From contig CALCCB010000054.1 of NCBI GenBank assembly GCA_937899625.1, positions 1-53,528 on the forward strand: a stretch of 53,528 nucleotides of DNA, given 5' to 3'. A model generated the notes under the pieces. The model searched no databases. It saw nothing but the letters and a program-made list of their open reading frames with translations, and was not told the DNA's origin. Origin of the DNA: an uncultured Bacteroidota bacterium (lineage in GTDB: Bacteria; Bacteroidota; Bacteroidia; Flavobacteriales_D; Crocinitomicaceae). Numbering within the stretch: the first letter of the stretch is position 1; every line of letters starts with the position of its first letter. Position numbers and translations under genes: made by a program. Positions 48,754 to 53,528 of this stretch are shown in pieces.

Positions 48754-48924
48754 AATGTCAGTGTTAATTTTCGCCAAAGATTTTGAAGCAGAAAAAAACT
48801 ATTGAAATTTTTAAAAATTCTTTAACCTATGGTTAAAAGATATAATAATATAGAAATGTCACTTTGAAGGGTAAACAAGTTTCATGAATTAGCGTTTATT
48901 TTGCGGCTCATAATTGCTGATCAA

Positions 48925-51243
48925 ATGGCTAAAAACCTCGTTATCGTTGAGTCCCCTGCAAAAGCAAAAACCATTGAAGGTTATTTGGGGAAAGACTTTG
49001 TTGTTAAATCAAGTTTCGGACATGTCAGAGACCTTGCTTCCAAGGGACTTGCGATTGATCTTGAAAATAATTTTGAACCTCAGTATGAAGTGTCCAGTGA
49101 TAAGAAACAGGTTGTCTCTGAGCTGAAGAAATTAGCGAAGGAAGCCGAGACGGTTTGGCTCGCTACCGATGAAGACCGCGAAGGAGAAGCGATTTCATGG
49201 CATTTGTATGAAGCGCTTGGACTACAGAAAAAAGATACAAAACGAATCACGTTCAACGAAATTACCAAAGGCGCAATTCTGAAAGCTATTGAGAATCCGA
49301 GAACAATCAACAAGGAATTAGTAGATGCTCAACAGGCAAGAAGAGTATTGGACAGAATAGTTGGTTTTGAATTATCACCGGTTCTATGGAGAAAAGTTAG
49401 ACCAAGTTTATCGGCAGGGAGAGTTCAATCGGTAGCTGTTAGACTGATCGTTGAAAGAGAAAAAGAAATTGAAAAATTTACTCCTTCGACATTTTTCAGA
49501 GTGACAGGTGAGTTTGCAGCTACAAATGGCAAATTCAAAGCAGAACTCAATTCGAATCTCTCCTCGAAAGAAGAGGCACAATCGTTAATGAACGGATTAA
49601 CAAGCGCATCTTTCAAGGTGAGCGATGTGGCTCAAAAACCGGCAACTAAATCTCCTTCAGCACCATTTACAACATCGACGCTGCAGCAGGAAGCCAGTTT
49701 GAAGCTTGGTTTTTCGGTTTCAAGAACAATGAGTGTTGCTCAGAAACTTTACGAATCGGGTAAGATCACCTACATGAGAACTGATTCAGTTAATCTATCT
49801 CAAACGGCGATCAATGGAGCAAAAGACGAAATTCTAAGGGCATATGGGGAGCAATATTCCAAGCCAACAAAATATACAACCAAAAGTTCTGGTGCTCAGG
49901 AGGCTCACGAAGCAATTCGTCCAACAGATTTTGGGGTTCATTCGATAAGTGGTGAAAGAGATGAAGAAAAACTATACGATCTCATCTGGAAAAGATCCAT
50001 AGCTTCACAAATGTCACATGCCCAATTGGAAAGAACAACAATCGATATTGAGATTTCCGACAATTCAAAAAATCATTTCGTCGCGAAAGGAGAAGTTATC
50101 CGTTTTGATGGTTTTCTAAAAGTATACCTTGAGTCAAATATTGATGACGAAGATGAAAGCGAACAGGAAGGATTACTGCCGGCAATGAAAGTGGGAGAGG
50201 AGATCTCTCCTTTAGAAATCAATGCAGTTCAACGTTTTACCAGACCACCAGCACGTTATGTAGAAGCATCGTTGGTGAAAAAGCTGGAGGAGTTGGGCAT
50301 AGGTCGTCCGTCAACGTATGCACCAACGATTTCTACAATTCAGAAGCGAGGGTATGTTGAGAAGAGAGAAAAGGAAGGTGATGAACGTAATTATGATGTG
50401 ATCAAATTGGTTGCAGGAAAAATCTCGGAAGAAACAAGAACTGAAATTACAGGAAGGGAAAAGAATAAACTTTTTCCTACTGATATTGGTGTTTTGGTAA
50501 CAGATTTCTTAAGTGAACACTTCAGTCGCATCATGGATTATCATTTCACTGCTGCAGTTGAAGCTGAGTTTGATCAAATCGCTCAGGGATTGGTTCAGTG
50601 GACAGAAATGATCAGGAAGTTTTACACTCCGTTTCATTCCAATGTTGAAGAGACACTAGAGCATTCGGAAAGAGTGACTGGTGAAAGAGTGTTGGGGGTT
50701 CATCCTGAGAATGGAAGAAAGGTAATTGTGAGAATCGGAAGATTTGGACCTATGGCACAAGTTGGTGATGAGCAGGAAGATGGTCAAAAGCCAGTTTTTG
50801 TTTCACTGCACAAAGATCAATCTATTTCGACAATAACGCTCGATGAAGTAATGGAGCTCTTCAAATTACCACGTGTGCTTGGAGAGAGTGAGGGGCAGGT
50901 CGTTAAGGCAAATTTAGGAAGGTTTGGTCCATATGTTCAGGTAGGAAAAGAATTCGTGTCTATCCCTAAAGGAGAAGACCCAATGACGATCACACTCGAA
51001 AGGGCTCTTGAGCTTTATGTTGTCAAGAAGACGGAAGATGCGAATAAGTTGATCAAGTCGTTTGATGGCCGGGAAGATGTACAATTACTAAATGGAAGAT
51101 ATGGTGCCTATCTTAAAATTGGAAAAGACAATTTCAAGCTTCCAAAAAATACCAAGCCTGAAGAGTTGACTTTGGAGGAATGCTTGGAGATAGCTGCTTC
51201 TCAACCAAAAACAAGTGGTAAAAAGCGTTCGGTAAAAAAATAA
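48925..51243 (+). CDS. topA: DNA topoisomerase I
   Basis: This protein has 772 residues from the ATG at 48925 (MAKNLVIVESPAKAKTIEGYLG, the TOPRIM start). TOPRIM acidic residues lie in TDEDREGEAISWHL. The catalytic Tyr283 is in YMRTDSVN. SAGRVQSVAVRLIVEREKEI is also typical. Instead of C-terminal zinc fingers, the tail carries three glycine-rich repeats (GRFGPMAQVG, GRFGPYVQVGKEF, GRYGAYLKIGKDNF) and ends in a basic stretch. It relaxes negative supercoils. It starts the rightward group that continues with the arginase-like and PorP-like genes. Confidence 0.97.
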   Translation: MAKNLVIVESPAKAKTIEGYLGKDFVVKSSFGHVRDLASKGLAIDLENNFEPQYEVSSDKKQVVSELKKLAKEAETVWLATDEDREGEAISWHLYEALGLQKKDTKRITFNEITKGAILKAIENPRTINKELVDAQQARRVLDRIVGFELSPVLWRKVRPSLSAGRVQSVAVRLIVEREKEIEKFTPSTFFRVTGEFAATNGKFKAELNSNLSSKEEAQSLMNGLTSASFKVSDVAQKPATKSPSAPFTTSTLQQEASLKLGFSVSRTMSVAQKLYESGKITYMRTDSVNLSQTAINGAKDEILRAYGEQYSKPTKYTTKSSGAQEAHEAIRPTDFGVHSISGERDEEKLYDLIWKRSIASQMSHAQLERTTIDIEISDNSKNHFVAKGEVIRFDGFLKVYLESNIDDEDESEQEGLLPAMKVGEEISPLEINAVQRFTRPPARYVEASLVKKLEELGIGRPSTYAPTISTIQKRGYVEKREKEGDERNYDVIKLVAGKISEETRTEITGREKNKLFPTDIGVLVTDFLSEHFSRIMDYHFTAAVEAEFDQIAQGLVQWTEMIRKFYTPFHSNVEETLEHSERVTGERVLGVHPENGRKVIVRIGRFGPMAQVGDEQEDGQKPVFVSLHKDQSISTITLDEVMELFKLPRVLGESEGQVVKANLGRFGPYVQVGKEFVSIPKGEDPMTITLERALELYVVKKTEDANKLIKSFDGREDVQLLNGRYGAYLKIGKDNFKLPKNTKPEELTLEECLEIAASQPKTSGKKRSVKK

Positions 51244-51337: not shown

Positions 51338-52495
51338 ATGAAGGACATTTCCATCTACTTTTCATCAATTGAAGAATTCAAAGATTACTCTGAATTACAA
51401 CTTGGAGGTCGATTGATCAAGCATACCGAAGGGAATTTCCCGGAAATAAAGTCCAAAGGGATTGCCATTTTTCATGTTCCGGAATATAGAGGGTCAAAAT
51501 CAAACGCTGATCAGATCCAATCAGAAAAATTTAGGAATTATCTGTACGAGTTGAATTTTGGGATCGGTTGGAGCATGCCGGTGTATGATCTTGGAAATAT
51601 CCTCCCCGGTGCAGAAATAAAGGACACCTTTCATGCGATAAAAAATGTGGTCACAGAGTTGGTCAAACAAAATGTTATTCCGGTTATCATTGGAGGGACT
51701 CAGGATTTGACCATGGCAATGTATAAGGGCTATGAAGGTTTAGAGCAGATGGTAAATCTATGTTCGGTTGATTATTCATTCGATCTTGGCGAACCTGAAA
51801 GTGATATACATTCAGAGGGATATTTGAGTCATTTATTGTTACAACGACCATGCTATTTGTTCAATCATTCGAATATTGGACTTCAGGCACCATTTGCTTC
51901 CAAGGCGGAATTTGATTTATTCGAAAAATTGTATTTCGACGTGTGTAGACTTGGAGAGTTCAATGCGGATTTCAAGAAGGCTGAACCTCATTTAAGGAAT
52001 AGCGATCTTTTAAGTATTGATTTGAGAAGTATAAGGTCGAGTGAATTAGCATCAGCGGACTATTTTCAGCCAAATGGATTTTATGCTGATCAGATCTGTC
52101 AGATAGCGAAGTACGCAGGAATCAGTGATAAATTAACTTCTTTAGGACTCTTTAATTATTTCCCTGAAAAGGAATTGGGCAGTCTTTCCGCGTTGGTTGG
52201 CCAAATAATCTGGTATTTTATGGATGGTGTTTCCCAGCGAAAAGCTGACTTTCCAATTGGAAGCAAAAAGAATTACACAAAATTTGTCGTTTCATTCGAT
52301 GACTTTAAAGATACTTTGGTTTTTTACAAAAGTGATAAATCGGATCGTTGGTGGTTGGAGGTTTCTTATCCTGAAGCCATGGGGTCTAAATACGAAAGAC
52401 ATCACATGGTTCCGTGTGATAAAGAAGATTATGATCGGGCAATGAATAATGAAGTGCCTGATTTGTGGTGGAAGACATATCAAAAGTATGTTTGA
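51338..52495 (+). CDS. Arginase/formimidoylglutamase-fold protein with degenerate metal site
   Basis: This 385-residue protein has the ureohydrolase fold, recognisable from VIPVIIGGTQDLTMAMYKGY, LCSVDYSFDLGEPESDI and DLLSIDLRSIRSSE. In active arginases these read GGxH, DAHxD and DxDxxDP. Here the first His is Gln122, the His of the second motif is missing (D145-Y-S-F-D149), and the second Asp of the third motif is Arg230. A working two-manganese centre is therefore unlikely, and the usual database label of arginase or formimidoylglutamase is doubtful. In related genomes it lies next to topA and the T9SS gldKLMN genes, suggesting a structural or regulatory role there. Confidence 0.8.
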   Translation: MKDISIYFSSIEEFKDYSELQLGGRLIKHTEGNFPEIKSKGIAIFHVPEYRGSKSNADQIQSEKFRNYLYELNFGIGWSMPVYDLGNILPGAEIKDTFHAIKNVVTELVKQNVIPVIIGGTQDLTMAMYKGYEGLEQMVNLCSVDYSFDLGEPESDIHSEGYLSHLLLQRPCYLFNHSNIGLQAPFASKAEFDLFEKLYFDVCRLGEFNADFKKAEPHLRNSDLLSIDLRSIRSSELASADYFQPNGFYADQICQIAKYAGISDKLTSLGLFNYFPEKELGSLSALVGQIIWYFMDGVSQRKADFPIGSKKNYTKFVVSFDDFKDTLVFYKSDKSDRWWLEVSYPEAMGSKYERHHMVPCDKEDYDRAMNNEVPDLWWKTYQKYV

Positions 52496-52659
52496 TCAAT
52501 TTTTAATGATTTGAAGGATTGTGTGAATATCATAACATGATGTGAAGATTAAGGAGAAAAAAAATTTCGATTATTAATTAAAATATTTATTTTAGCCGCT
52601 AATTGCAAGGACTGTAATGTCAGTTGCTTGACCTAATTTACTAGTGTAAAGCTGTGTTT

Positions 52660-53528
52660 ATGAATAAAAAGCTATTGCTTGCCGCTTCTTTTTCAGTGCT
52701 CTGTTCGATTTTTGGTATATCGCAACAGGATAAACTGACCACTAATTTCATTTATGATAAAATGAGCCTTAATCCTGGGTCTACTGGTTTAGATGAAGGG
52801 ATTTGTGGGACAACGATCTATCGTAATCAGTGGGATAGAATTAATGGAGCGCCGAATTCTGCTATTTTTAATTTGGAGGCGAACATGAACCGCTTCTTTC
52901 CTGGAGGAATTGGTCTATCATTTTATCATGATGCAATTGGATTCAACAGACAGAACAATGTATTGTTGAATTACTCTTATCCGCTTGAAATTGGTGGAGC
53001 AGGTAAGTTGGGCATAGGTTTAGGAGTTGGAATTATCAACTTTGGAATGAATCCTGAATGGGTGCCGCCCACAACCGCTGTTGATAACTCGTTGCCTGTA
53101 GGATGGAATTCGACTAACCTTGATTTAAATTTTGGTTTGTACTTCAAAGGAGAATCTGATTACTATTTCGGATTGTCTTCAACACATTTAAGTGAAACAT
53201 TGTTAAAGCAAAGTGTTGGGGGTATTGATTACCAGTATCAGACGAAAAGACACTACTACATCATGGGAGGTAAAAAGTTCTCTCAGATTGGACCTGGAGA
53301 TATTGATGCACAAGTTCTTTTAAAGACTGAGCTTGTTAAATTTCAAGCGGATGTTATGGTTCGATACATGTACTCTCAAATGTTGAATGGTGTTTACGGA
53401 GGATTATTGTACCGTAGTTCAGATGCGATCTCTTTGGTTTTAGGATGTTCTCCTATTCCAAACTTTACTGTAGGTTATTCTTATGATGTTAATACTTCAA
53501 AATTAGGAAATGGTCAAGGTGTACACGA
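52660..53528 (+). CDS. PorP/SprF family type IX secretion membrane protein (3' end outside window)
   Basis: The open frame runs from the ATG at 52660 to the window end (289 codons). A signal peptide (MNKKLLLAASFSVLCSIFGISQQ) is followed by the family start FIYDKMSLNPGSTGLDEGI, TIYRNQWDRINGAPNSAIFNLEA, and beta-barrel-like strands such as GIGLSFYHDAIGFNRQNNVLLNYSY and YYIMGGKKFSQI. PorP/SprF proteins are outer-membrane partners in T9SS secretion and gliding and often precede gldK. The 164-base gap before it is AT-rich and lacks a clear -7 box. It contains AATGTCAGT at 52616-52624. The C terminus is not visible. Confidence 0.88.
   Translation, partial: MNKKLLLAASFSVLCSIFGISQQDKLTTNFIYDKMSLNPGSTGLDEGICGTTIYRNQWDRINGAPNSAIFNLEANMNRFFPGGIGLSFYHDAIGFNRQNNVLLNYSYPLEIGGAGKLGIGLGVGIINFGMNPEWVPPTTAVDNSLPVGWNSTNLDLNFGLYFKGESDYYFGLSSTHLSETLLKQSVGGIDYQYQTKRHYYIMGGKKFSQIGPGDIDAQVLLKTELVKFQADVMVRYMYSQMLNGVYGGLLYRSSDAISLVLGCSPIPNFTVGYSYDVNTSKLGNGQGVH

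Follow-up and report, generated by a model that had tools for sequence, protein, structure and literature searches.

A putative pseudo-formimidoylglutamase of Bacteroidia that lacks the metal ligands exclusive to site B and is encoded, in most families, between topA and the T9SS core genes

An arginase-fold protein of 385 residues, nearest to formimidoylglutamase (HutG) and lacking the ligands exclusive to metal site B, was identified in a 53,528-nucleotide contig of an uncultured Bacteroidota bacterium of the Crocinitomicaceae, the whole of which is hereafter called the window. Its designation as a pseudoenzyme, in the sense of a protein without normal ureohydrolase activity, is well supported by the alignments described below. 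We give about even chances to the reading that it is a putative cytosolic binding protein, derived from formimidoylglutamase and repurposed for a housekeeping role that is not specific to T9SS. The class surveyed here is, by our reading, Bacteroidia, and the nearest named relatives are Crocinitomicaceae and Flavobacteriales MAGs. The following features were located in the window.

48901–51243, forward strand: topA, the upstream neighbour (94-nt gap), named by sequence and conserved place
51338–52495, forward strand: putative pseudo-formimidoylglutamase gene, 385 aa (ORF, Pfam, model and structure match)
51548–52174, forward strand: arginase-family domain, residues 71–279 (Pfam PF00491)
51701–51703, forward strand: codon of Gln122, which replaces the site-A His of GGxH (sequence; alignment to 3m1r/2a0m)
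51770–51784, forward strand: D145-Y-S147-F-D149, with the bridging Asp kept, the site-B His changed to Ser and the site-A Asp kept (sequence, alignments)
52019–52027, forward strand: D228-L-R230, with the bridging Asp kept and the site-B Asp changed to Arg (sequence, alignments)
52154–52156, forward strand: codon of Asn273, at the position of the back-wall Glu of the ureohydrolase pocket (alignment)
52238–52492, forward strand: family-specific C-terminal domain, residues 301–385, containing RWW, RHH.VPC and PDLWWKTYQK (alignments, searches)
52654–53526, forward strand: gene of the PorP/SprF family, truncated where the contig stops (PF11751, 7e-46; TIGR03519, 2.3e-48)

The open reading frame starts with ATG and contains no internal stop, which confirmed the coordinates and the intact frame given in the original prediction. 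The protein had also been regarded as otherwise full length; it is indeed intact, but it is longer than a ureohydrolase by approximately 85 C-terminal residues. Likewise, the placement at the edge of a T9SS locus holds for the PorP-like gene but not for gldK–N, which are absent from the window. Since the PorP-like gene runs off the end of the contig, the T9SS locus of the window is inferred from its relatives. A scan for promoters and terminators gave matches no more numerous than those in shuffled sequences.

The window protein scored 30.7 bits against the arginase-family model PF00491, above its curated cut-off of 22, and 34.6 bits against the hutG model TIGR01227, below its equivalog cut-off of 229.15; two positive controls scored 288.8 (L197) and 264.7 bits (L198) against the latter. 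The hutG model was the best family model for all 20 members of set A1. When a profile of 20 relatives was compared with solved structures, the top matches were the formimidoylglutamases 3m1r (1.4e-08) and 2a0m (3.1e-08). An AlphaFold2 model built with 56 sequences had a mean pLDDT of 89.1 and a pTM of 0.90, and its best solved match was the Trypanosoma cruzi formiminoglutamase 2a0m (Z = 32.5, 2.4 Å over 273 residues, model range 16–302). In a tree drawn open and containing five long branches, the orthologues formed one side of a branch against the HutG-like rows, with an SH-aLRT value of 93. Among arginase-fold proteins, the window protein is nearest to HutG, and when its own genome was searched with this single sequence, allowing E values of up to 1, no second arginase-family match appeared.

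According to a study of plant arginase (PMC7370999), one Mn ion is held by H157, D181, D185 and D266 and the other by H183, D181, D266 and D268, of which D181 and D266 are bridging. Residue alignments to 3m1r and 2a0m showed that Gln122, Ser147 and Arg230 of the window protein fall on ligand columns. The three losses originally proposed were correct: the His of GGxH is Gln122 (motif GGTQD), the absent His of DAHxD is Ser147, and the second Asp of DxD is Arg230. The survival of D145, D149 and D228 completes the list and gives a ligand set of QDSDDR, which differs from the six-ligand, two-metal set of HutG. Mapped through the alignments, both bridging aspartates (D145 and D228) are kept, one of the two ligands exclusive to site A is lost (Gln122) and the other kept (D149), and both of those exclusive to site B (Ser147 and Arg230) are lost.

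The alignment check at the metal motifs, proposed together with the prediction, was run on 214 non-identical orthologues, many of them from the window's own family; identical sequences were merged (255 to 221), and the short rows L181, L182 and L196 were dropped before the ligands were counted. H147 occurred in 6 and D230 in 7 of these orthologues, and the two never occurred together. We also sought gldK neighbours that keep all ligands, and found the full six-ligand set in none of the 60 gldK-linked copies; it was equally absent from the 31 copies not linked to gldK. The HutG-like controls retained H147 and D230 in 7/7 cases and had no C-terminal domain. Without the two site-B ligands the protein would be unable to hold the two-metal cluster, the source of the attacking hydroxide, and so is not expected to be a normal ureohydrolase. 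What the original prediction called a dead ureohydrolase thus appears to be a conserved arginase-fold protein other than a ureohydrolase, with site B lost clade-wide. For conservation, 84 representatives of less than 65% identity were used, from which the long-branch rows L172, L179, L180, L183 and L050 were left out. D145 was conserved at 100%, D228 at 99% and D149 at 94%, and positions 147 (33%) and 230 (40%) ranked only 289th and 250th of 385. In the tree, the outer lineages (L184–L186, L162, L166, L168 and L170) keep His at position 122, which suggests that site B was lost first and the site-A His later, the root being uncertain. Real enzymes tolerate the loss of this His: the printed alignment shows Asn at that position in 3m1r, and 4myn is the T. 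cruzi enzyme with the substitution N114H. Conserved core residues lay at strand ends in 12 cases against 8.6 expected, a value equalled by 32 of 260 circular shifts and not significant, so it is the aspartates that carry the idea of a conserved pocket.

The C-terminal domain contains F329, W338, W339, C360 and Y365, each at 100% in the 84 representatives. Searches with residues 301–385 found no Pfam family even with E values of up to 10, and nothing below E 0.4 among PDB sequences. Modeled separately, the domain reached a pLDDT of about 72 (72.1); comparison of this model gave no Foldseek match with E below 0.001 and, with VIA-align, a highest Z of 5.1. Assignment to a known fold was hence set aside, as Pfam, PDB sequences and fold comparison gave no confident match; such absences do not establish a new fold.

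It is possible, though doubtful, that the protein is a working enzyme of new chemistry, in which the kept aspartates and the C-terminal domain serve a hydrolase or transferase reaction with one metal (site A) or none. This would agree with the counts of D145 (209), D149 (201) and D228 (207) in the 214 orthologues, all three being present together in 201, with the full site-A quartet H-D-D-D found in 15, with the invariant W, C and Y of the C-terminal domain, and with a gene that is near-universal in the class. A catalytic site is less easily reconciled with position 122, which is Q in 186 and H in 16 orthologues and otherwise N and other residues, or with the back-wall Glu position, which is Asn in 107/214 and Glu in 86/214. 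Constant metabolic neighbours are also missing: in families without the topA link they differ, such as an AhpC/TSA thioredoxin-like protein in f14 and polysaccharide genes in f16.

The genomic neighbourhood was examined in 91 loci from 44 families, which include the very divergent and partly truncated f18 orthologues (L179–L183); L278, having no copy of the gene, was not counted. The gene topA lies just upstream in 63 loci and gldK just downstream in 60, and both hold in 57 loci and 33 families, so that the predicted order topA–gene–PorP–gldK is conserved. Counted by family, gldK lies downstream on the same strand in 34 of the 44. Upstream genes were MiaB-, sigma-54 activator-, LptE- and TPR-like, the names being assigned by sequence and place. 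In family f15 (L166, L168 and L170), an S13 D-Ala-D-Ala carboxypeptidase (PBP4-like) follows the gene on the same strand. The f18 orthologues (L181, L182 and L183) have diverged strongly, and a good match is confined to the C-terminal half; beside them are encoded a Mur ligase and a GldK-like protein with an FGE domain, the families of which were read on L181. The gap to an adjacent topA had a median of 17 nt and was 60 nt or less in 49/61 cases; the gap to PorP/gldK had a median of 139 nt and was 60 nt or less in 5/59. This spacing makes co-transcription with topA likelier than with gldKLMN, although an operon-like gap could reflect place rather than function.

The distribution of the gene was compared with that of T9SS markers in a class survey of 326 genomes with a completeness of 95% or more. 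The gene was present in 306 and SprA in 318 of them; crossing the two gave 302 genomes with both, 4 with the gene only (G061, G404, G532 and G327), 16 with SprA only and 4 with neither. In a wider phylum sample of 392 genomes, SprA was detected in 319, and the profile of the gene matched 176 at E below 1e-5. Outside the class the matches were weaker, at most 123.5 bits among the matches listed, and those inspected were HutG-like; SprA-bearing genomes of other classes gave such weaker matches or none. The genus g33, to which G061 belongs, proved informative, as the gene was detected in all 40 genomes, GldL in 37 and SprA in only 11. All 29 SprA-less members kept the gene and 26 of them GldL, and GldM was present in all 11 GldL-bearing SprA-less genomes tested (ten of g33, plus G327). 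Most SprA-less members of g33 appear to carry a GldLM motor without its translocon. Where three of them were viewed (L279/G061, L281/G473 and L284/G486), the cluster was rearranged, with gldN/gldK-like genes divergent or not nearby, in comparison with the ordinary gldKLMN of SprA-bearing members (L280/G480 and L282/G454).

These data bear on whether the protein assists T9SS and gliding from the cytosol in a non-catalytic way, perhaps by regulating the GldLM motor, which we consider unlikely. The gldKLMN neighbourhood and the presence of SprA in nearly all orthologue-bearing class genomes are what such an accessory would show, and the 26 SprA-less genomes with GldL leave room for a tie to the motor. 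However, both the gene and SprA are near-universal in the class, so their co-occurrence says little. A T9SS component should be lost with the rest of the system, but the gene persists throughout g33, including G404, G484 and G479 (completeness 99, 95 and 85%), from which SprA, GldL and GldM are all absent. Conversely, the gene is missing from the 16 SprA-bearing class genomes mentioned above, of which six were checked for GldL and all were positive. Neither topA nor gldK was found nearby in 25/91 loci within the limits used, and the operon-like distance is to topA, not to PorP/gldK. The T9SS-tied role in the original prediction was hence not borne out by either distribution or spacing. A more elaborate idea is that this class-wide pseudo-ureohydrolase, with its new C-terminal domain, senses a metabolite or cation and is expressed with topoisomerase I; in most of the class it would link cytosolic conditions to the T9SS/gliding motor encoded by its neighbours, and where T9SS was lost it would retain a second, older partner. 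We regard this as a long shot.

A very improbable alternative is that the protein is a true HutG with an odd metal setting, filling in for the missing formimidoylglutamase of a scattered histidine pathway. Of the 60 relatives examined, 55 had the orthologue and 55 had HutU (urocanate hydratase), so a histidine role is not dismissible by absence of the pathway. In one stretch of the own genome (L289, 8291–10309), urocanate hydratase lies apart from recognisable hut genes, which would suit a scattered pathway, and the rank of hutG as best family model would suit a true HutG. Against this stand the TIGR01227 score far below the cut-off and a relative, G439, that has hutH, hutU, hutI and a HutG with six ligands (L197, the control above) and also keeps the gene (L189), sited between topA and gldK. 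Moreover, no HutU match was obtained in G034 (99% complete) or G041 (91%), both of which have the gene. The replacement of HutG was thus lowered by the coexistence of an intact HutG, and the HutU survey itself gave no exclusion.

Comparison of the window gene with its two nearest relatives gave dN 0.024 with dS 0.90 and dN 0.031 with dS 0.49, indicating purifying selection. Among SprA-less g33 members (17 of the 29 genomes), 31 of 136 pairs had a dS below 2, and for these dN/dS had a median of 0.021 and a range of 0 to 0.098; saturation prevented an estimate for G404/G484. The frame is intact in the genomes without SprA, GldL and GldM. Chance decay or an artefact is ruled out by these values together with the ligand conservation.

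The repurposed, housekeeping binding protein favoured here would be a class-wide, vertically inherited cytosolic descendant or sister of formimidoylglutamase, in which the ligands exclusive to site B (His147 and Asp230) were lost before the family radiated. D145, D228 and D149 were kept and position 147 is K or R in 117/214 orthologues, as if a side-chain cation had replaced metal B. The most likely ligand of the old pocket would be one cation or a positively charged small molecule; the pocket and the added C-terminal domain may jointly offer a surface for regulation or assembly in a core process of the cytosol. A cytosolic place is consistent with the sequence, in which no signal peptide was seen by eye. 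That the gene is sited between topA and the T9SS core genes in most families would then not imply a T9SS-specific role. Nearly all surveyed genomes of a major bacterial class carry this gene, which encodes the fold of a catabolic enzyme without its catalytic site, and the loss of site B with retention of the other aspartates provides a natural experiment on how two-metal hydrolases change into something else. The gene is probably named after formimidoylglutamase in genome annotation, and through such an enzyme-derived name pathway reconstructions can report a lone formiminoglutamase. Section 3.2 of a Mariniflexile genome paper describes the histidine pathway as missing except for formiminoglutamase (PMC11278836), and this lone enzyme is probably the present protein under a misleading name.

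In the literature covered, with most subscription journals outside its scope, nothing was found on this gene; within the same scope, no paper combined gldK with formimidoylglutamase, and one mentions both T9SS and arginase. Four systems can be compared with the window protein. In an arginase-like protein of the eukaryote Trypanosoma brucei, the arginase fold reportedly evolved with no two-metal cluster. HutG (TIGR01227; 3m1r, 4mxr/2a0m and 1xfk) shares the arginase fold and is the best match in both sequence and structure, but the window protein lacks the site-B His and Asp, carries an extra C-terminal domain and is encoded outside a hut operon. PorP/SprF and the gldKLMN T9SS core are genomic neighbours in most families, although the distribution of the gene is not tied to theirs. 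MetCb, described in PMC11271267, is a published pseudoenzyme: in metformin hydrolase this metal-free subunit binds MetCa as its partner. The paper also describes MetCb homologues with three to five of the six ligands replaced, and notes that both eukaryotes and prokaryotes have arginase proteins that lack a two-metal centre and whose functions are elusive. With this ureohydrolase subunit already published, the original description of a new kind of component was too strong (PMC11271267). The window protein resembles MetCb in its ureohydrolase fold and in having three of six ligands replaced, but MetCb itself has lost five of six, whereas the window family keeps three aspartates; MetCb has an adjacent active MetCa, whereas the window gene is not so paired and its neighbours are topA and PorP; and the window family is spread class-wide with an added domain.
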